Assembly: GCA_016202645.1 (NCBI GenBank)
Contig: JACQOF010000133.1
Location: 1-36,854 of the forward strand
Direction of reading: 5' to 3'
Source: a bacterium
Lineage (GTDB): Bacteria; Lindowbacteria; 2-12-FULL-62-27
DNA: 36,854 nt
The translations under genes were made by a program, and so were the position numbers. Positions 1 through 14,129 of this stretch are shown here, one piece after another (positions within the stretch are counted from its first letter, which is position 1; each line of letters begins with the position of its first letter). The notes under the pieces were generated by a model. That model saw nothing but the letters and a program-made list of their open reading frames with translations. It was not told the origin of the DNA and did no database searches.

Positions 1-3000
1 GATCTGAAAAACATCGTTTGAAGTATCGTTTACCGCCGCGTCCGACGTGTCGCTCACGCGGACTTTGGCCTGCGTCGTGCTCACGTTCGGCACGGTCCAC
101 GAGTACACGCCGGTATTGACAACCGAAGGCGTGATGACCGACCACGTCACGCCCGAGTCAGTTGAATAATCGAGCCGCGACGCCGAGATCGTGCCGGTGG
201 AAAGCCACGTTATGCTGAACGGACCCGGCGACTGGATGGAATCGCCGCCGTTGGGGCTTGTGAGGGTGAACCCGCCCCGGATCGTGAAATTCGCGTTGGA
301 GGTGTCGAAAATGGCGGCGTCCAGAACGTCCGTTATGCGGATGCGGACGCCCGAGCCGATCGAGTCGGCCACATTCCAGGCGTAACTGCCCGTGTTGGAG
401 ACGGACGGCGTGATCACGTTCGGGAAGGTCGCGCCGCTGTCGGTCGAAAACTCGATCTTGACGTTCGCGACCGTTCCCACCGTCGACCACGCGAGGGTCT
501 GGGTGTCGCCCACGGTCCAGACCTGGCCGCCGTTCGGCGCCGACAAAGTGAAACTCGACGGCTGGGCGGTCTGGGAGGTCGTATCTGTAAAGAAAGACTC
601 ATTCACCGACGCCGCGGCGTCGCGCGACGTCAGGCGGTAATAGTACACCGAGTTCGCGACAACCTGCGTGTCGATCCACATGGTGTCGCCCGCGCCGGCC
701 GTCCAGACAAGGGCGTTCGCCCAATGCGTCGTGTCGGGCGTGTCCTTGAGGCGATAAACCTTCACCCCCGCGAACCCCACCGCGCCGCCGTTGGCTTCCT
801 CAAGGGTCGTAGGGTTCTGCCACGCCACCACGATCTGCCCGGGTGTGCTCGTGTCGAGCGTCACGGTGTCGGGCTTCGCGGGCGCGGTGGTGTCGGCGCC
901 CGCGGCGGTGTCGACCTGCCCCAGCCGGAACGGTTGCCAGATGATCGAGTCGCCGTTCGACGCCTGAAAGATCATCTTCTTGATCCGGTCCGTGTCGGTC
1001 GAGTTCCACCAGTTGCGGGTGAAGGTGAATTTGCTGGCCGCGTCGGATGAGCCGTTATAGACCCCGCTGTCGGGATTCGTCCCGGACGTCTTGATGTCGT
1101 TCTTGACAACCGTGTCGGAGGATGGCGCGCCATCGATGTAAATCTGGTACTCCGTGTTGTTCCTCACGTCATTTTGGACAACCGTGTTGTTCGAACTCGA
1201 AGACAGCCAGATACCGTCGAACGAATTCGAACTGACCGTGTTGCTCGTCACCGTGTTGTTCGAACTCGTATCCAGAATGATGCCGAGCGAATTCGAACTG
1301 GCCGTGTTGCTCGTCACCGTGTTGTTCGAACTCCCATACAGATAGATGCCGTAGTCCAAATTCGAAGTGACCGTGTTGCTCGTCACCGTGTTGTTCGAAC
1401 TCGAATCCAGATAGATGCCGTAGTCCGAATTCGAACTGGCCGTGTTGCTCGTCACCGTGTTGTTGTTCGAATTCGAATACAGAGCGATGCCGAAGGTCGA
1501 ATTCAAACTGGCCGTGTTACTCGTCACCGTATTGTTGTTCGAATTCGAAGACAGATAGATGCCCGCCGACAAATTCGAACTGGCCGTGTTGCTCGTCACC
1601 GTGTTGTTCGAACTCGAAGACAGACGGATGCCGTACGCATTCGAACTGGGCGTGTTGCTCGTCACCGTGTTATTCGTCACCGTGTTGTTCGAACTCGTAT
1701 CCAGATAGATGCTGGAGTTCGTATTCGAACTGGCCGTGTTGTTTTTGATGGTGTTGGTGTCGGAATTGACGCGCACGTATATCCCGTAGTGGCCGTTGGA
1801 ACTGACGCTGTCGCTTTCGATCGTCGAGTTGTCGACGTTGTAGAAATGGATCCCGTCATACGCCCCCGTCACGCCGAGGTTTTTGATCGTCAGGCCCGTC
1901 TGCGTGTCGGCGTAGATGCCGTACAGACCAACCGTCGTCTTCGCGCCCGGCGGGTCAATCACGGTCGCGACTGAGTCCTTGCCGATGAGACTGACGTAGT
2001 CGGTGTCGATGACGACGGTTTCGGAGTAGAGTCCGGCGTCGACGTAGATCGTATCGCCAGCCTTGACCTGCGACACAGCCTTGGTGATCGTCCGGTACGG
2101 GTTCTGTGCCGTCCCGTTGCCCGTTACATCGTTACCCGTTGCCGACGTAAACGAATCCCCGGCTGTGCCTGCGTCGTTCACGTACCAGACGCCGCTCACG
2201 TTCGCCGCCAGCGCGGGCGCGGCCCACTTGGTGTCGGTGAAAAACGACTCGTTCAAAAGCACCGCGCCGTCCTTCGACGTGAGGCGGTAATAGTACGTCA
2301 CCGCCAGCGACACGTTCGTGTCGGTCCAGGTGGTGTCGGTCGATGCCGTCTGCTTGACGAGGTTGGCCGAATTGGCCCAGTTGTTTGTGTCGGGCTGGGT
2401 CGACCGCCAGATGTTGACGCCGGAAAATCCGACCGCACCGCCGTTGGTCTCCTCGTTGATGGTCGGAATCACCCACGTGAGCATGATCGCGGACGCAACA
2501 CTCGTGGTGTCCAGCGTCACCGACGCCGGCAGGCCCGGCGCGGTCGTGTCGGCGCCCGATGCCGTGTCGACGGCGCCAAGGCGGTAGGGGCTGAAGGTGA
2601 TGGTATCAGCGCCGGGACCCCGGAATCGGCCGCGGATGGAGGATTCGTCGGTTGTGCCCCAGAAGTTCCGCGCGGCGTCTACGGACGACGTGGTGTTGTT
2701 GAAGGCGCCGCTGTCGGGGAAGACCGTCCCCGCGGGAAACTGATTTTTCGTGATGACGTTGCCGGCGGAATTGCCGTCGACGTAGATCGCGTATCCCGCG
2801 ACGGAATCAAACGTGTTCTGAACGACGACGTTTCCATGCGAATTGAAGAGGTTCAGCGCGCGCCAGGGCAGGCCCGCGGTCTGGCCGTTGTCCTGGACGA
2901 CGTTTCGGGCGATGACGTTCGAGTCGGTGGTGTCGAGGGGGATGGCGATGTTGCTCTGTTTGACGAGGGTATTGCCGAGAACGCGGTTATTGAAAGCGTT

Positions 3001-6000
3001 GGTCTGATTAAGCCAGATGCCGTACGTGCCGCCCGTGAGGTGGTTGGCTTCGACGAGATTGTTCTGCGCGGGCGCGGAAACGATGATGTTCGCGCCGACG
3101 TTGTCGACGAACCGGTTCTGGCGCAGCGTGTTGCCGTGGCCCGACACGAGAAGGGCGTATACGGACCCGCCGCCGGTCGAATTTCGCGCGAAATCGCATT
3201 TCTCGACCGTGTTCGAGTCGCTCCCAGTGGTCAGGTGGACTCCGCCAACCGTCGAATTGGAGAAACTGTCCCCGGAAATCGTCGCGAAGTCGACATTGTC
3301 GAAAAGGATCCCGTAGTTGGTGCTTCGGACCCCGAGGGTCTTGATCAGAAGGCCCGTCCGGGCGCTCGCGTATATCCCGGTGTCATTCCCGGGAGGATCG
3401 ATCACCGTGGCGTTCGAGTCGACGCCGATGAGGCTGATCTGGTCCGCGGCGATGACGACCGCCTCGGCGTAGAGCCCCGCGTCCAGCCAGACGGTGTCCC
3501 CCGCCGTCGCCAGGGTCATGGCCTTGGCGACCGTCCCGAACGGAGATTGAGGAGTGCCAAGGCCCGTAACGTCCGAACCGGCCGCGTAGGTGTAGCTGTC
3601 CCCGGCCGTCGAAGCGTCGTTCACGTACCAGTTCACCCGCGACTGCGCCTGCGCGGAATCGGACGGCTGGCTGTCCGAGAAAAACGACTCGTTCTCGAAC
3701 GGAGTCGCCGCGTCGAAGGCGGTCACGCGGTAAAAATAGTTCACGCCGAGCTCCACGTCCGTGTCCTGATACCGGATCCCCGTTGTCTGACCCGCCTTCA
3801 CCCACGACGACGTGTCCTTGGTCTTGCTCCGGTACACGCGGTAACCGGACAGGCCGACCGCGCCGCCGTTCGATTCCTCCAGCGCCGTCACCGCGCTCCA
3901 CTCCAAAATCACGCTCGTATCCGACGGCGTGCCGATGATGGCAATGGTATCCGGCGCTTTCGGCGCGGTCGTGTCGGCGCCGGCGGCGGTGTCGACCAGG
4001 GCAAGCCGGTAGGGCGACCAGGCGTTTGCGGTGTCGCTGATTTTGGCCGCGACCGTCACCGAGTCCGCGGACCCGAACCAGTTGCGGGTGAGGAGACTCT
4101 GGGCGAGGCCGCCGGGGTTGGCAAGACCCGTGGTCGAGTTGCCGGCGAGATTGTTTTTCGTGACTGTATTGTTTTTGGACGAAGACGAGAGTTTCACCCC
4201 GTCGGCGTTGCCGGAACACTCGTTCAGGGCGACCGTGTTGGTGTCGGAACTGTCGATCTGAACACCGCCCTGGGTGTTTGACGCGCAGACATTCCTCGAT
4301 ATGACGTTGGCGTTCGCTCCCACGGCGAGGTTGATCCCCCGGGTGTTGGAACTGGCGGTGTTTCCGCTCACGGCGTTGTTCGACGCGTTGGACAGATGGA
4401 TGCCGTAGGTATTCGATTTGGTCGTGTTGCCCGTCACCGTGTTTTGATTGCAGCCGACAATGCTCAAGCCGTTTCCGGTATTGGATGTGGCTGTGTTGTT
4501 CGACAGCGTGATGTTCGAGCCGGAATTAATATAGAAGCCGTCAAACGAATTGAAGCCGAGCGTGCTGTTTTTCACGGTATTCGTGTCTGAACCCCCGGTG
4601 AAATAAATCCCGTTGTCGCCGTTGGAACAGATGCTGTCCCCGTCGAGCGTGGAATTGTCGACGTTGCTCCACTGGATGCCCTCATACGCGCCGGTTATAC
4701 CGAGGTTCCGGATTCGAAGCTCGACCCGGTTGGTCGCGTAGATGCCGTAGAGGCCGCTAAGCGTCTTCGGCCCCGGCGGGTCGATCACGGTGGCGCCGGA
4801 ATCCTTGCCGATCAGCGTGATCTGGTCCTTGTCGATGTTGACCCCAGCGGTCTCGGTCGAATTGACGATGACGTACGAGTCGTACAGCCCCGCGTCGAGG
4901 AAGATCGTGTCGCCGGCGGTGGCGAAACGCATGGCGAGGGGGATCGACTTGAACGGCTTTTGCGCCGTGCCCTGTCCCGTCACGTCCGATCCGGCCGCAT
5001 ACGTGTACGAATCGCCAGCGGTGGCGGCGTCATTGACGTACCAGTTGACGCGGGAGGTAAAGGACGCTGAATCGGACGGCTGGGAGTCGGAGAAGAAACT
5101 TTCATTGTCGAGCGTGACCGTGTCAAAGGCCGTCACGCGGTAGTAATAGATCCGGCCCGGAACCACGTCAGTGTCCTGATACCGGATCCCCGTCTGCTTC
5201 GCGACTTTCACCCACGACGACGTGTCTTTGGTCTCGCTTCGGTAAATTCGGTACTGTGACAGGGCCACCGGGCCTCCGTTGGATTCCTCATTCGTCGTCA
5301 CCGCCGTCCACTCGACAATCATCGACGTGTCGCTTGGCGTCACAGCCACCGTGTCCGGGGCTTTCGGCGCGGTCGTGTCAGCCCCGGCGGTGGTGTCGAC
5401 CAAGCCCAGGCGGTGGGGCTGCCAGGCCGACACCGCGTCGCTGATTTTGCTCTTGATCGCCGCCGTGTCGGTTGATCCGAACCAGTTGCGGGACAGTGTC
5501 TGCGGGTTGCCGGACTGATTGTAGATGAAATTCACAGCGCTGCCCGTGATGTTGTTCTTCGATGCCGTGTTCAACGTGGACGCGGCCTCGAAGTGAATCC
5601 CCGTGTCGCCGCCGCTTACGTCGTTCTGCACGACCAGATTGAAGTCCGCGTCCTTGATCCACATCCCCTGCCAGGCGCTTGATCGGACGACGTTGTTTCG
5701 CACGATGTTGGTGTCGGCGTTTGTCGCCAGCACGATGCCCCGCTGGGAGTTTGAGGTCAGACTGTTGCTTGAAATGACGTTGTTGGAACTGCCATTCAGG
5801 TAGATGCCCTGACCGCCATTGGAATTGGCCGTGTTGTCGCTGATCGTGTTGTTGTTCGAAGGCGAAGCCAGCATGATTCCTTCGCTCAAATTCGAATTCA
5901 CCGTGTTGTTCGAAATCGTGTTGTTGGAACTCGCCGACAGCCGGATGCCATCTACCGTGTTCGATCCGGTTGTGTTGCCGTTCAGGGTGTTGCCAAAACT

Positions 6001-9000
6001 CGACTGAATCTGGATCCCGTAGACGCCATTGGAATTGGCCGTGTTGCTTGAGACGGTGTTCGTGTCGGCGTTCGTCGTGAGATAAATCCCGTTGCTCGAT
6101 GAGGCACTGTTGGCCGCGTTGCTCGACACGGTGTTATTCGAGCTGCCGTTCAATACAATATTGTCGTTGGTGTTCCCGATCGCCTGATTGGAACTTACCG
6201 TATTGTTGTTGGAACCGCTCAAAAGATAGATGCCATAAAGACCGTTGGCAGAAACGCTGTCGCCCGTGATCGTGGACAAATCGACGTTGTCGAACCGAAT
6301 TCCTTCGCTCGCCCCCGTCACGCCGAGGGATTTGATCGACAGCCCCGTCCGGCCCGTGGCGTAGATGCCGTAGAGACCGGTCGTGGCGATCGATCCCGGC
6401 GGGTCGATCACGGTGGCGTTGGAATCCTTGCCGATGAGGCTGATCGAGTCGGTGCCGATGACAACGGTTTCGGCGTACAGCCCCGCGTCGACCCAGACCG
6501 TATCTCCCGCCGTCGCCAGTTTCAGCGCCCTTGTGATCGTCGCAAACGGATTCGTCACCGTCCCCTGGCCCGTCACGTCGTTTCCGGCCAGATACGTGAA
6601 ACTGTCCCCCGTCGTCGACGCGTCATTCACGTACCAGTTCACCCGAGACTGCGCCTGCGCGGAATCGGACGGCTGGCTGTCCGAGAAAAACGACTCGTTC
6701 TCGAACGGAGTCGCCGCGTCGAATGCCGTCACGCGGTAAAAATAGTTCACGCCGAGCTCCACGTCCGTGTCCTGATACCGGATCCCCGTTGTCTGACCCG
6801 CCTTCACCCACGACGATGTGTCCTTGGTCTTGCTCCGGTACACGCGGTACCCGGAGAGGCCGCCCGCGCCGCCGTTCGATTCCTCCAGCGCCGTCACCGC
6901 GCTCCATTCCAGAATCACGCTCGTGTCGGACGGCGACCCGATCACCCCCACCGTGTCCGGCGCTTTCGGCGCGGTCGTGTCGGCGCCGGCGGCGGTGTCG
7001 ACGGCGCCGAGGCGGAAGGGCTGGAACTGGATCAATTTCCCCGTCGCCGTATCAAAAATCATTTTGTTGATTGCGATAGAATCGGTCGTGCCCCACCAAT
7101 TGCGCATAAAATATTGCGGATTGTTGGTGCTATTGAAAACCCCACTGTCGGGGTTAGAGGTGGATGGAATAATAACGTTCTTCATAAAGGTGTCGGATGG
7201 CGTGGTCCCGATTCCCTGCCGATAGATATAGATTTGGTATTCAGTATTAGAAACAAGTGTGTTTTGTACGAAAACATTATTTGAGCTCGACATGAGATCG
7301 ATTCCTGACGCCGTGCTGGATTTGACAATGTTGCTTGATATCAAGTTGTTGTTCGAGCTGGCAGACAAAGCAATGCCTCGATTATTTGAAAGGGTGGTGT
7401 TGTTGAGCAACTGATTGGTGGAAGATTGCGAAAGCAGGATCCCGTAGTTATTTGAATTGGTGGTGTTGTCGCGGACTGTGTTGTTGTCCGAAAATCCGTT
7501 GAGTTCGATGCCTTCCGTATTGGAGTTGGAAGTGTTCCCGCTCACGGTACAGTTCAAACTCCCTTGCAAAAACATCCCGTAATAACCGTTTAAATTGGTT
7601 ATGTTGTTGCTGATGGTGTTATTATCCGAACCGGTCAAGAGATAAATTCCATATTGACCCGTGGCGCTGGCACTGTCAGACGTAATGGTGGATTGATCGA
7701 CGTTGTTAAACCGAATTCCGACATAGGCACCGGTCACTCCGAGGTTTTTGATCAACAACCCCGTCCGGCCCGTGGCGTAGACGCCGTACAGAGTCGTTAT
7801 CGAATTCGCCCCCGGCGGATCGATCACGGTGGCGTTGGAATCCTTGCCGATGAGGCTGATCGAGTCGGCGTTGATGACAACCGTTTCGGCAAACAAGCCG
7901 GCGTCGACGAATACGGTGTCGCCCACTGTGACCAGAGACAACGCCTTCGTGATCGTCGCAAACGGCTTTTGCGCCGTGCCTTGGCCCGTCACATCCGATC
8001 CGGCCGCGGACGTGTACGAGTCGCCGGCCGTGGAGGCGTCATTGACGTACCAGTTGACGCGGGACGTGAACGCGGCGGAGTCGGAGGGCTGGGAGTCGCT
8101 GAAGTAGCTTTCGTTCTCGAACGCGGCGGCGTCGAAGGCGGTGACGCGATAATGATATGGAGTGCCGAGCGCGACATCGGTGTCCTGATATCGAGTGATG
8201 CCGGATGCCAGTTGCTGGATGCGGGTCCAAGACGAGGTGTCCTTCACGGTACTGCGGTACACCCGGTACCCCGACAGCCCCACCGCGCCGCCGTTGGATT
8301 CCTCCAGCGCCGTCACCGCGCTCCACTCGATGATGATCGACGTGTCGGATGGCGCGCCGATGACCGCGACGGTATCCGGGGCTTTGGGCGCGGTCGTGTC
8401 GGCGCCTCCCGCGGTGTCGACGAGGCCGAGCCGATAAGGTTGGAATTTGATTTTTAGATCCGGCGCCGTGTCAAAAATCATCTTTTTGATCGTGGTCGAG
8501 TCGGTTGTTCCCCACCAGTTGCGCTCGAACCCAAACAATTCGTTCGTGTTGTTAAAAACGCCGCTGTCCGGGTTGGAGGACGAGGGAGAAATGACGTTCT
8601 TGGAGAACGAATCATTTGTCGAGGCGCCGCCTGTCGGGTCGTATGTCAAATAAATTTGGTACTGCGTATTGGCGGAAAACTGATTTTGAACAAGGATGTT
8701 GCTCTGAGACCGTTGGAATTGAATCCCACGCACATTTCCGGATGAGAGATTTCCCACAAACGTGTTCGTATCTGATGTTCGGAGGTAAAAGCCGTCACCG
8801 GTGTTGGAAATGGCTTGATTGCTCTTGAACATTACGAAGTTTGCGTTCTGAAGCGAAAACCCTGTGGTGTTGGTTTGCGCCAAATTTCCGGAATACGTGC
8901 TGTTGGAATTCTGGACAGAATATCCCGTGGAGGCGCCCTTGACGACGTTGTTGGTCACGGCATGCCCATTTCCACCGGATATGTAAATGCCGTAGGTTGG

Positions 9001-12000
9001 ATTATTAACAGCGGCGCATCCGTCAATCACCGCCGTGTCGGAAGAATTGTAGATGAAAATTCCCCCGTCGGAATTAGAACTAAAACTGTCACCCTTGGCC
9101 GTGATCTGGTCGACATTATTTAAAAAGAGTCCATAGTTTCCGCCGATGCAGGCCAAATTTTTAACGACCAAGCCTGTCTGATTTGTCGCGTATATGCCAT
9201 AGGGCCCTTCCAACGCCGCACCGGTAGAACCCGGGGGATCGATGATGGTTGTGGTGGAGTCAACGCCGATCAGCGAAATGTTGTCCTTGTCGACTCGAAC
9301 GCCCGCCGTATCGCTTGACGTGGAGATGACATACGAATCAAAAATACCGGCGTCGAGCCAGATCGTGTCTCCGGCGGTGGTGAACCGCATGGCGAGGGGG
9401 ATCGACTTGAAGGGCTTCTGCGCCGTGCCCTGCCCTGTCACGTCCGATCCGGCCGCGTACGTGTACGAGTCGCCCGACGTGCTCGCGTCATTGACGTACC
9501 AGTTGACGCGGCTGGTGAACGCGGCGGAGTCGGAGGGCTGGGAGTCGCTGTAGAAGCTCTCGTTCGGAAATGCCGCGGCGTCGAAGGCCGTCACGCGGTA
9601 GTAGTACACGCGGCCCGGAACCGCGTCCGTATCCTGATACCGGATGCCGGTCTGCTGGGCGACTTTGACCCACGACGACGTGTCTTTCGTTTCAGCGCGA
9701 TAAATCCGGTATCCCGAAACCGCCGGTGCGCCGCCGACGCTCTCCTCGTTCACCGTCACCGCGCTCCACTCGAGAATGACGCTCGTGTCCGACGGCGCGC
9801 CGATGACGCCCACCGTATCGGGCGCTTTCGGGGCTGTCGTGTCGGCGCCCGCCGTCGTGTCAACGACGCCTATTCTATATGGAGAGAAGGCCGACGCCGT
9901 GTCGCTGATTTTGGCCTTGACTGTCACCGAATCGGCCGAGCCGTACCAGTTGCGGGTGATGGTCTGGGCGATGCCGGCCGAGTTATACACCGAATTGACG
10001 GCGGAGCCGGTGATATTGTTTTTGGAGACGATGTTGTTGGCGGAAGATCCCTCGATTCGGACGCCGGTGTCGCCGCCGGTGATTTCGTTCTGATAAACCA
10101 AGTTCGTATCGGAACTCTGGATCAGGATCCCCTGCTCCGCGCTCGACGCGATGACGTTATTGCGGATGGTACTGCTGAACGCCGACGAGAAGCCGATGCC
10201 GGTCGGATTGGCGGTCAGCGTGTTGTTGAAAATGTCGAAGTTGGCGGTTTGGGTTACTGAGCTAAGAAAAATCCCGTACGTCGAGTTTGAACTGGCCGTG
10301 TTGTTCTTGACGATATTCTTTGAAGCGTTCGTACTGAACCGGATGCCGATACTCAAATTGGAATTGGCGATGTTGTTGTCGACGGTATTGTTGGCGCTGC
10401 TCTGAATGTCGATCCCCCGCTGCGAATTGTTGCTGGTGGTGTTATTTTTCACCGTATTGCTGTCGGACCCGGACGTGAAGAGGATGCCGGCGTTCCCGTT
10501 GGAGCCGACGCTGTCGCCCGAAATGGTGGAGAGGTCGACGTTGTTGAAATTAATGCCGTTATAGGCGCCGGTCACACCCAGGTTTTTGATGGTCAATCCC
10601 GTCCGTCCGGACGCATAAATGCCGTTGAGATCGGGCTGTGTTTTAGGCCCCACCGGATCAATCACCGTCGCGCCGGAGTCCTTGCCGATCAGCGTCAAAT
10701 TGTCCGTATCCAGATTTACGGCGGCGGTTTCCGTCGTGGAAATCATCTCCCACGTGTCGGAGCCGAACGTCCCGGCGTCCAGCCAGATCGTGTCGCCGGC
10801 GGTCACGTACTGCATCGTTTTGGCCAGAGACGCAAACGGCTTGCCGACGGTGCCTTCGCCCGTCACATCCGATCCCGCCGCGGTGGTGAAACTGTCGCCC
10901 GAGGTCGACGCGTCGTTCACGTAAAAATTCATCCGGCCAACCCACGCCTGGCCCGAGGGCTGGCTGTCCGAGAAGAACGACTCGTTATCGAGGGTCGCCG
11001 CGTCGAAGGCCGTCACGCGGTAGTAATACACGCGTCCCGGGACGACATCCGTGTCCTGGAACCGGGTGATGCTGGATGCCAGTTGCTGGATGCTCGTCCA
11101 GGACGAGGTGTCCTTCACGGTACTGCGGTACACCCGGTAGCCCGACACCCCGACAGCGCCGCCGTTGGACTCCTCCAGCGCCGTCACCGCGGACCACTCC
11201 AGCACCACCGTCGAATCCGATGTCGTACTCACCACCGCCACCGTGTCCGGGGCTTTCGGCGCGGTGGTGTCGGCGCCGGCGGCTGTGTCGCTCACGCCGA
11301 GGCGATACGGCGACCAGGCCGACGCAGTGTCGTTGATTTTATTTTTGATCGCCGACGAGTCGGTCGACCCCCACCAGTTGCGGCTGAGGGTCTGGGCGAC
11401 GGCGACGAGGCTGGACCAATTGCTGGAGGTATTGCCGGTGATGTTGTTTTTGGCGAACGTATTGGCGACGGATGCGTCATAGATGCGGACGCCGGTGTCG
11501 TTGGCGGAAATCTCGTTCTGTGTGAACGCATTGCCGGATCCGAGGTTAAAATCTATGCCATTCAGAGCATTCGACCGGATTGTATTGTTCGAGATGACAT
11601 TGTTGTTGCTGGATGCCAGAAAGATGCCGTGGTTGTTCGAATTGACCGTGTTGCCGCTCACCCCGCAAGCCGACGTCTGTTCGAAGTAAATGCCGTACTG
11701 GCCGTTGGCATTGGCCGAGTTGTTCTTGATCGTGATATTGCTGCTCACATAGGCATAAACGCCGTATGACGAATTGGAATTTATGAAATTGTCCGACAGC
11801 GTGTTCGTGTCGCAACTGTTCAAAAGATACGCGCCGACACTGCCGTTATTGCTCAGACTGTCGCCCGAAATGGCCGACGCATCCACATTTTCAAAAAAGA
11901 TCCCGTAATACGCGCCCGTCACCGCCAGGTTTTTGATGAGAAGCCCCGTTACGGTGTCCGCATGGATGCCGTAATAGCCCGGCCGTCGCGTTCGATCCCG

Positions 12001-13297
12001 GCGGGTCGATGATGGTCGAGGCCGAGTCTTTGCCGATCAGCGCGATGCTGTCGGTGTTGATGACGACGGTTTCGGTGTAAAGCCCGGCGTCGATGTAAAT
12101 CGTGTCCCCCGCCTTCGCCTTCGTCAGCGCCTTCGTGATCGTCAAAAACGGCCTGATGTGCGACCCGTCTCCGGTGGTGTCGTGCCCCGAAGCCGTTGTG
12201 AACAAGTCGCCGCCAGTCGACGCGTCGTTCACGTACCAGTTCGGGCCGGAATAAAAAGGAACCGTGTAGCCCCAGAAGTTGGTGGTGGCATTACCTCCGA
12301 AAGCATAGATCGTGTCGCCCGAACCAGGATACACCAACGCGCCACCAGGATACACGGTGGCCGGGGCGGCGGCCATCGTTGTCCATGCGTTATTTTTGAT
12401 GGAATACGCCCAGAAGTCGGTTACGTTATTACCTCTGAAAGCGTAAATCGTGTCACCCGAACCGGGATACACCAACGATCCACCGTTAGCCACAGTGGCC
12501 GGGGCGGCCGCCTTGGTTTCCCATGCGTTATTCGTGATGGAATACGCCCAGAAGTTGGTGGTGGCATTACCTCCGAAAGCATAGATCGTGTCGCCCGAAC
12601 CAGGATACACCAACGATCCACCACCCTGCACGGTGGTCGGGGCGGCCGCCTTGGTTTCCCATGTGTTATTCGTGATGGAATACGCCCAGAAGTTGGTGGA
12701 GGTATTACCCCCGAAAGCATAAATCGTGTCACCCGAACCGGGATACACCAACGATCCGCCATAGGCCACCATGACCGGGGTGGCCGCCATCGTTGTCCAT
12801 GTGCCATTGTTGATAGAATACGCCCAGAAGGTCATGGAGGAAGCACCTCTGAAAGCATAAATCGTGTCACCCGAACCGGGATACACCAACGATCCACCAC
12901 CCTGCACGGTGGTCGGGGCGGCCGCCTTGGTTTCCCATGTGTTATTCGTGATGGAATACGCCCAGAACTTGGTGGAGGTATTACCCCCGAAAGCATAAAT
13001 CGTGTCACCCGAACCGGGATACACCAACGCGCCGCCATCATCCACGGCGGCCGGCGCGGCGGCGAGGGTGGACCAGGTGTTGGGGGCGGCGTGGGACTGG
13101 GGAGTGCAAAGTGCAAAGTGTAAAGTGAAAAGTAAAAGCAGGGCGGCGAGGAAGTGGGATTTTATGTTACATTCGCGGCGTGGGCCCGGGCGGGTCGCCG
13201 TCCGACGAACGTCATTCGACCGGATGAGGGTTCGACTCCCTCCGGGTCCACGCATTGTCAATCCCACCCGTCCGGAGAATTCCTCAACAATTTTCAT
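1..13297 (-). CDS. Giant secreted kelch / beta-helix / FnIII repeat protein (3' end off window, one frameshift)
   Basis: Translation order: a polar 36-residue N-region, a hydrophobic signal segment ending near Ser-His-Ala, six kelch repeats (13077-12249), then eight blocks. Each block has a DUF1565-like start (NWYVNDA, AGDTIW-DAG, LIGKDS-ATVIDPPG), right-handed beta-helix repeats of the type SSNNTVTSNTA, an RNWWGSTD-like exit, and an FnIII domain (GYRVYRS, YYYRVTAFDA, NESFFSD). The last two modules (about 560-1) carry PNGG, STDSG and W motifs like Ser-Thr-rich/KNH-type Ig domains. The reading frame was checked at W or F codons at 10924, 9499, 8050, 6634, 5041, 3628, 2185, 517 and 205; all are in phase. 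The codon at 12236 is one phase off, so there is a one-base frameshift near 11977. The start ATG at 13297 was chosen for its GGAGGA site at 13307-13312; ATG 13255 is the alternative. The family predicts an extracellular adhesin or carbohydrate-binding surface protein; no catalytic motif was seen, so function is unknown. The C-terminus and any sorting domain lie outside the window. Confidence 0.85.
1180..1760 (-). repeat. Tandem parallel beta-helix coil array (about 66-78 bp units)
   Basis: The plus-strand word GTTGTTCGAACTCG or a near copy recurs roughly at 1186, 1255, 1321, 1393, 1462, 1534, 1603 and 1681. Each copy encodes one Asn/Ser/Thr-rich coil of the form SSNNTVTSNTASSN-xGIYL. Spacing is always a multiple of three (66, 69, 72 or 78 bp). 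This is the most homogeneous coil stack in the giant gene and looks like the product of recent coil duplication. Confidence 0.8.
11971..11984 (-). other. Single-base frameshift in the giant gene
   Basis: In the other seven blocks the segment after IDPPG reads GLYGIYA or close to it. Here the coding strand has GGGCTATTACGGC, one base longer than the expected Gly-Leu-Tyr-Gly codons. The upstream frame stops at 11891 after about 28 unrelated residues, while the correct beta-helix sequence resumes at once in the next frame (YGIHADTVTGLLIKNL). This is either a sequencing or assembly indel or a real inactivating or phase-variable mutation. No homopolymer longer than three bases is present at the site, so slippage is not an obvious cause. 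Confidence 0.85.
12249..13077 (-). repeat. Six tandem 138-bp kelch repeats
   Basis: The marker GAACC(A/G)GGAT on the plus strand recurs at 12321, 12459, 12597, 12735, 12873 and 13011, always exactly 138 bp apart (46 codons). Each unit translates as NxWxTxAAAPxxV, GGxLVYPGSGDTIYAF(G/R)G, xxFWAYSI. The YAFGG core followed by W-containing strands is the kelch blade signature. Some units differ at only a few bases, so the array probably expanded recently. Six blades can form one beta-propeller at the N-terminus of the mature giant protein. Confidence 0.9.
13178..13253 (+). other. tRNA-like cloverleaf, probably a degenerate tRNA or mimic
   Basis: An 11-bp outer stem pairs 13178-13188 with 13243-13253 (one G-U). 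Inside it lie three hairpins: 13189-13199 (GGCG/CGCC, 3-nt loop), 13201-13224 (TCCG/CGGA, then CGAA/TTCG, loop CGTCA) and 13226-13242. The last is a perfect T-arm, GAGGG, TTCGACT, CCCTC. The tRNA-length acceptor would be 13182-13188 with 13243-13249, discriminator A13250. It is not a normal tRNA: the D-loop is only 3 nt, there is no U33, the body is 69 nt and no CCA is encoded. With a 7-nt loop the anticodon position would read GTC (Asp). It overlaps the N-terminal codons of the giant gene on the other strand. Confidence 0.45.
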
Positions 13298-13326
13298 TTG
13301 ACAGATTCCTCCAAATCGCCTATAAT
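13298..13326 (+). promoter_or_regulatory. Perfect consensus sigma-70 promoter
   Basis: TTGACA at 13298-13303, a 17-bp spacer and TATAAT at 13321-13326 match the consensus at all twelve positions, which is very unlikely by chance in GC-rich DNA. It points right, away from the giant gene, and starts next to that gene's start codon on the opposite strand. Transcription would begin near 13333. No open frame of note follows; an intrinsic terminator does. Confidence 0.85.
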
Positions 13327-13332
13327 GAGGGC

Positions 13333-13407
13333 AGTCGGACGGTTCAATCGAACCTTCGGTCGAATGACACAAACGGCCTTGGCAACCCCAAGGCCGTTTT
13401 GTTTTTG
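13333..13407 (+). ncRNA. Predicted small RNA of about 75 nt
   Basis: The transcript runs from the consensus promoter to an intrinsic terminator. It contains a GGTTC-AATC-GAACC hairpin (13341-13354), then CGGTCGAATGAC (13357-13368), then the terminator stem. The 12-nt segment is the exact reverse complement of 13211-13222 in the cloverleaf. No start codon with a ribosome site is visible inside. It belongs to no RNA family I recognise. Its role could be regulation of the neighbouring genes, or it could be the leftover of a longer gene. Confidence 0.6.
13371..13406 (+). terminator. Intrinsic terminator of the small RNA
   Basis: A perfect 12-bp stem (AAACGGCCTTGG at 13371-13382 and CCAAGGCCGTTT at 13388-13399) with a 5-nt loop is followed on the plus strand by TGTTTTT. 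The minus-strand exit lacks a good T-run, so the terminator works for rightward transcription. Confidence 0.85.
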
Positions 13408-13813: not shown

Positions 13814-14061
13814 TTGAAACGCCTCCTTTGGGGAACGCCCTTTGGGATGTGCTGTGGACCACAGAACGGATTGAAGTCGACACGTCTAACCTTGGGACGG
13901 CGAGCACTTGAGCGCGTCGTGGGAGCAGGCAAATCCGCGGAGCGAGGCGTCGAGCACAGGATGAACATCATTCATAAGTCCCCGTCACTATAGGCGGCTG
14001 AACCCCTCAGCTCCAACCGTGTCATTGTGCCCACGAAGAGCGTAAATGTCAATGTGCAGTT
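13814..14061. other. Intergenic region without recognisable gene
   Basis: The stretch upstream of hicB has several short frames on both strands but none with a convincing ribosome site or a recognisable motif. Apart from the hicB ribosome site at 13822-13829 I see nothing in it. Confidence 0.5.
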
Positions 14062-14129
14062 AAATCGCTCATAGCTATTTGCTATTAGCTAATAGCTAAC
14101 AGCCAATAGCAAACAGCAAATAGCGATTA
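14062..14129. repeat. Word-repeat hairpin after the LCP gene
   Basis: The sequence consists of variants of TAGCTATT, TTTGCTATT and AATAGC, and folds back on itself: AATCGCT (14063-14069) pairs with AGCGATT (14122-14128), with many inner pairs such as ATTTGCT/AGCAAAT. The stop codon of the LCP gene (TAA, 14129-14127) lies in its edge. It may act as a terminator for the housekeeping cluster. It is AT-rich compared with its surroundings. Confidence 0.7.

Follow-up and report, generated by a model that had tools for sequence, protein, structure and literature searches.

The left end of the window, by which we mean the whole 36,854-nucleotide stretch analysed (the entire contig C107 of a draft genome of 146 contigs that is 82% complete), raises the question of whether its minus strand encodes one giant modular protein and, if so, what such a protein might do outside the cell. 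The giant gene occupies window positions 1-13,297 on the minus strand and codes for a modular product of more than 4,400 amino acids, and its frame runs off the contig end, in agreement with the original prediction of >4,400 codons with no stop in the window. The body of the gene is an open reading frame at 11922..1 (-) that has 3,974 codons with zero stops and is open at the contig end. Using mononucleotide odds, a stop-free run as long as this has a log10 P of about -58, and the remaining two minus-strand frames contain 145 and 72 stops. GC3 along the giant's frame is 0.71-0.84. Comparison of the left end of the contig with the rest of the same genome gave no match, and leftward extension to the stop codon is thus not possible with this assembly.

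The head of the gene is in a separate open reading frame at 13372..11891 (-) that overlaps the body in another frame. The two are out of frame because of one extra base near 11,985, where the window reads GGGCTATTACGG versus GGGCTA-TACGG in C90, a paralogue from the same genome, and where two relatives from the sister genome Ca. Lindowbacteria RIFCSPLOWO2_12_FULL_62_27 (G001) likewise lack one base. All three of these homologues are in frame across the kelch-helix junction, and apart from this base the window sequence aligns through the junction. Thus, the predicted single continuous coding region needs one correction: machine translation finds no in-frame stops in the body, but the extra base splits the gene into two reading frames. 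This base most likely reflects an error in sequencing or assembly, or else a mutation that arose very recently. An assembly chimera at this position was rejected, as only a one-base gap interrupts the alignment of the homologues across the site. In regards to a programmed frameshift, inspection by eye revealed no slippery heptamer at the site near 11,985. The dN/dS values are 0.24-0.44 between kelch heads and 0.24-0.56 between modules, and are therefore well below 1 on both sides of the frameshift, indicating that the protein sequence has been kept by selection.

In coding order the product has a leader with a signal peptide, six kelch repeats, eight beta-helix/FnIII units and two KNH-like Ig modules, which map to the window as follows.

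13091..13297 (-), N-terminal leader and Sec-type signal peptide (IKSHFLAALLLLFTLHFALCTPQSHA), from sequence
12239..13087 (-), kelch head of six 46-residue repeats, predicted six-bladed beta-propeller, from Kelch_6, 138-nt repeats, AlphaFold2 and Foldseek
11278..12238 (-), beta-helix 1, broken by the frameshift, from sequence and homologue alignment
~11982..11988 (-), single-base frameshift (near 11,985), one extra base versus C90 and two G001 homologues
10927..11277 (-), FnIII 1, from Pfam fn3 and Ig_RIMBP2 matches slightly below cut-offs
9850..10926 (-), beta-helix 2, from unit alternation and Pfam
9502..9849 (-), FnIII 2, from unit alternation
8407..9501 (-), beta-helix 3, from unit alternation and Pfam
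8053..8406 (-), FnIII 3, from unit alternation
6988..8052 (-), beta-helix 4, modelled jointly with FnIII 4, from Pfam, AlphaFold2 and VIA-align to the AlgE6 A-module
6637..6987 (-), FnIII 4, with seven modelled strands, from AlphaFold2 and titin profile matches at residues 370-458
5386..6636 (-), beta-helix 5, from unit alternation and Pfam
5044..5385 (-), FnIII 5, from unit alternation
3982..5043 (-), beta-helix 6, from unit alternation and Pfam
3631..3981 (-), FnIII 6, from unit alternation and repeat comparison
2557..3630 (-), beta-helix 7, from unit alternation and Pfam
2188..2556 (-), FnIII 7, from unit alternation
901..2187 (-), beta-helix 8, the most regular, with NNTVTSNTASSN coils, from sequence and Pfam
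559..900 (-), FnIII 8, from unit alternation
1..558 (-), two KNH-like Ig modules and then the contig end, from a Kre9_KNH match for the first module

The leader has two candidate starts, ATG 13297 behind GGAGGA and ATG 13253, and no in-frame ATG is present beside its hydrophobic segment. The kelch head expected from the original prediction is recovered as six 46-residue repeats that match Kelch_6 at 4.8e-25 (87 bits) with a direct-repeat period of 138 nt. The eight beta-helix/FnIII supermodules are likewise borne out as eight plus eight units in exact alternation, where a DUF1565/NosD/Beta_helix region of ~354-429 residues is followed by an FnIII-like domain of ~115 residues. Specifically, Pfam NosD and Beta_helix are above cut-off in 7/7 full-length supermodules tested and DUF1565 is above cut-off in 5/7, with TIGR03804 matching 24 stretches. 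The alternation in Pfam hits thus holds for NosD/Beta_helix in each supermodule tested, but not for fn3, which is below cut-off per module; here the seven strands of the model and the titin profile matches favour FnIII. A 300-nt tract at 3554-3853 (FnIII 6) has 92% identity to the FnIII 4 region at 6560-6859. Finally, the first KNH-like module scores 26.0 bits with Kre9_KNH against a Pfam cut-off of 24.6, which upholds the predicted KNH-like modules for one of the two, and no second copy of the KNH tail was found in any of the fetched loci.

The profile matches also brought up a NosD copper maturation protein (TIGR04247) as a candidate identity. The TIGR04247 cut-off is passed only when the scores of 11 stretches are added up, the best of which covers positions 1-280 of 377, and no NosF/NosY gene is present among the window genes scanned. 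This identity was rejected since no helix spans the whole 377-position model and the scanned window genes lack NosF/NosY.

Several additional elements lie near the leader or elsewhere on the contig. At 13178-13258 (+) there is a tRNA-like hairpin with a T-arm and a loop containing GUC for which ARAGORN gives no call; it has 80% identity over 76 nt to C6:252761-252836 of G001, where the loop also has GUC, and it gives weak Rfam matches to tmRNA/mascRNA-like families. The segment at 13298-13407 (+) contains a perfect sigma-70 consensus (TTGACA-17-TATAAT) and, ~45 nt beyond it, a strong terminator hairpin; with a fold z of -4.9 and a 3' part conserved in G001, it is a candidate sRNA antisense to the giant's leader. 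Note that the signal peptide owes its hydrophobic core to heptamer-like repeats (TTTACACTTTGCACTTTGCAC) in the DNA, found at 13080-13130 and 14030-14125 (-), and that similar short repeats (GCTATTAGCTAATAGC) occur at many sites genome-wide. A second kelch-repeat protein of 642 aa is encoded at the opposite end of the contig (34764-36692, minus strand).

Structure prediction with AlphaFold2 yielded both the propeller head and the beta-helix plus FnIII-like fold that the module map calls for. The supermodule composed of beta-helix 4 and FnIII 4 was modelled on an alignment of 44 supermodules (pLDDT 88.1, pTM 0.83), and is predicted to form a right-handed beta-helix followed by the seven strands of an FnIII-like sandwich. 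Beta-helix 4 superimposes on the AlgE6 A-module with a VIA-align Z of 38.0 (rmsd 2.1 Å over 315 residues, 16% identity), while supermodule sequence profiles match AlgE4 and NosD and the FnIII part matches titin. For the kelch head, the best model has a pLDDT of 84.5 and a pTM of 0.87, where the pLDDT of the five models is 52.5-84.5, and Foldseek matches it to the designed six-bladed SAKe6 propellers and to Keap1. These models support a closed six-bladed kelch propeller as the predicted form of the head. Roughly estimated from the usual coil rise and FnIII length, a rod of eight units would measure ~70-80 nm.

The protein is one member of a large Lindowbacteria family and no single oddity. A 974-residue probe gave, at E<=1e-30, 71 matches in the window's genome and 101 in G001. 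The latter genome contains an intact kelch-headed ORF of 4,954 codons (contig C24, MFPR01000024) and another of 9,114 codons that has both the kelch head and a tail (contig C6, MFPR01000006). These giants have kelch heads 75-79% identical to that of the window, the same helix/FnIII units and, like the window copy, a signal peptide. They differ in that they reach a sorting-domain tail, whereas the window copy ends in KNH-like modules absent from the fetched relatives. In the window's own genome, the end of C53 (L015) and the start of C83 (L018) share an exact 141-base overlap inside a giant ORF, which implies one ORF of >7,800 codons; in this case the assembly breaks within repeats, hiding even longer proteins.

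The common rod of the paralogues carries different N-termini that consist of kelch, NHL repeats, FG-GAP repeats, an M6-type peptidase domain or none, as in C121 which has a helix directly at its start with no separate head. In paralogue C90 (L009, 30-464) the signal peptide is followed by just three kelch repeats, too few to form a closed propeller by themselves; either this number is real or repeats were collapsed during assembly. Our genome-wide kelch scan used two peptide patterns only and its counts are a lower bound. Low-complexity in-frame inserts (SLPLSLSPSLPLSL, EGEREKGREGE) are present in the C-terminal regions of L014, L016, L017 and L019, and recur across giants whose heads differ, much as if coding DNA had been invaded by a dispersed repeat. 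Another bacterial family (f133) also has a kelch-headed helix-FnIII relative, in G134/JAKPEO, and helix-FnIII arrays occur in G271. When 386 genomes were surveyed with the head-plus-helix profile, 13 matched at E<=1e-12, several of them through one of its two parts only. The original prediction knew of no description of this architecture, and we found none in the limited literature searched, but it is intact in the sister genome and shared by the f133 relative.

The sorting domain is not visible in the window copy because the contig ends, and thus the export of the family has to be judged from complete relatives. Their C-terminal domain, whose last residues are LAIVR, passes the TIGR04183 (type A sorting domain) cut-off in 3/3 Lindowbacteria genomes, and this sorting-like tail is also similar to FlgD_ig and CHU_C. 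PorV-family proteins are above cut-off in 3/3 Lindowbacteria genomes as well. A SprA-like protein of 1,825 aa is present in G001 (contig C20) with a 66% identical counterpart in G002; its match has an E of 1.3e-19 and 69.1 bits against a family cut-off of 200. No SprA-like gene was found in the window's own draft genome (82% complete), and the SprA_N profile gave no match in the genomes searched, where the positive control gave none either, so that this result does not speak for absence. Taken from sequence comparisons, type IX-like export of the family appears likely, though not established, and the window copy would share the export route and C-terminal sorting domain of its intact relatives.

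What the protein might do was addressed by the pattern of variation in the head and the rod. Among 20 kelch blades the most variable positions include 14 and 15 (DA loop), 35 and 38 (BC loop) and 45, while the AB loop (positions 22-27) is nearly invariant. The DA and BC loops of kelch propellers share one face, and Keap1 uses this face to bind Nrf2. In the rod, what the beta-helix coils conserve is mainly ladders of Asn and Gly, without any charged cluster in common, and a profile alignment (2pyg) places the DPHE stretch of AlgE4 on residues of the giant that have no conserved acid or histidine at D and H. The conserved ladders together with the lack of conservation of DPHE favour a binding rod over an enzyme. 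An AlgE-type epimerase or lyase function is made improbable by the absence of a conserved active site in the beta-helices.

The best reading of the giant, and one we regard as fairly probable, is that of a rod or adhesin which is exported and binds ligands multivalently. The signal peptide would send the giant through Sec, and a C-terminal type IX-like sorting domain would allow it to cross the outer membrane and then hold it at the surface. There it would present a six-bladed kelch propeller, mounted on the N-terminal tip of a stiff, extended rod composed of the eight beta-helix/FnIII units plus the Ig modules. The propeller would bind ligand via its variable DA/BC-loop face, with the beta-helices serving as spacers and possibly as weak glycan-binding surfaces. 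We infer surface display, ligand binding and an adhesive role on this basis, and the giants probably function in gripping molecules or surfaces outside the cell. In line with the two roles first suggested, a rod-like adhesin or a multivalent carbohydrate binder, a long rod that is adhesin-like or binds multivalently has the best support among functions. Points against the binding-rod reading are the missing C-terminus of the window copy, the failure to find a SprA-like gene in the draft, a SprA-like score far below cut-off and the three repeats of C90.

Other readings were weighed against the same evidence. The rods could instead pack into a coat or matrix as a structural, sheath or S-layer-like protein, with the heads capping the rod or mediating self-assembly. 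The many long paralogues that share the rod in one genome would fit such a role, as would the interchangeability of heads and the direct helix start of C121, but the blades of the head vary mainly on the canonical ligand face and the copies vary widely in length and in the type of head, which a uniform coat protein would not, so that we consider this reading unlikely. That the giant is a multi-domain polysaccharide enzyme, with lyase or epimerase activity in each beta-helix and FnIII domains as linkers, is suggested by the closest solved folds, which are AlgE/AlgG epimerases, PL6 lyases and tailspikes. A shared fold by itself shows no function, however, and with the DPHE alignment and the lack of a conserved charged cluster in the coils this proposal appears quite improbable. 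Least probable, and in our judgement very much so, is a decaying pseudogene in which the frameshift is real and the frame no longer yields the giant. This explanation draws on the extra base that sets beta-helix 1 apart from three in-frame homologues; it has to contend with 3,974 downstream codons without a stop, sustained GC3 and codon constraint, and with a draft assembly of 146 contigs of a kind where single-base errors are common.

Comparison of the binding rod with known systems shows that every module of the giant is already known. The A-module of AlgE mannuronan C5-epimerase (2pyg, 5lw3) has a right-handed beta-helix fold like the giant's helices, but the giant has no conserved DPHE stretch and its eight helices are spaced by FnIII domains. 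The pneumococcal beta-helix surface adhesin PfbA (4mr0) aligns with the giant's beta-helix at a VIA-align Z of 30.0; PfbA is a single secreted helix on a Gram-positive surface and has no propeller head. Keap1 and designed SAKe6 are six-bladed kelch propellers like the giant's head, which has near-uniform blades as in designed propellers; unlike both, this head would be secreted and is fused to a giant rod. Type IX secretion has been studied mainly in Bacteroidota. Very large proteins of uncultured bacteria, such as those of Omnitrophota, are likewise known (as cited in PMC11573180), although they belong to a different lineage and the main text of that paper names neither kelch nor helix.

What look new are the architecture and its lineage-wide expansion, though another bacterial family shares them. 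In the limited literature searched, kelch, beta-helix, FnIII and type IX were not found described together, nor were such a size or an expansion with differing heads within one candidate phylum, and we found nothing on type IX in candidate phyla and no account of the Lindowbacteria cell surface. A more far-reaching and tentative reading, to which we give less than even weight, is that Lindowbacteria have a combinatorial surface proteome, serving as a dedicated system for recognition, in which interchangeable heads are mounted on a shared rod with a type IX-like tail. It is similarly conceivable, and no firmer, that duplication of modules and gene conversion drove the diversification of these heads (kelch, NHL and FG-GAP propellers and an M6 peptidase). 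The family suggests type IX-like export of proteins near 9,000 residues outside the usual groups, and its rods with swappable heads offer testable candidates for the means by which an uncultured phylum makes contact with surfaces, polymers or other cells.
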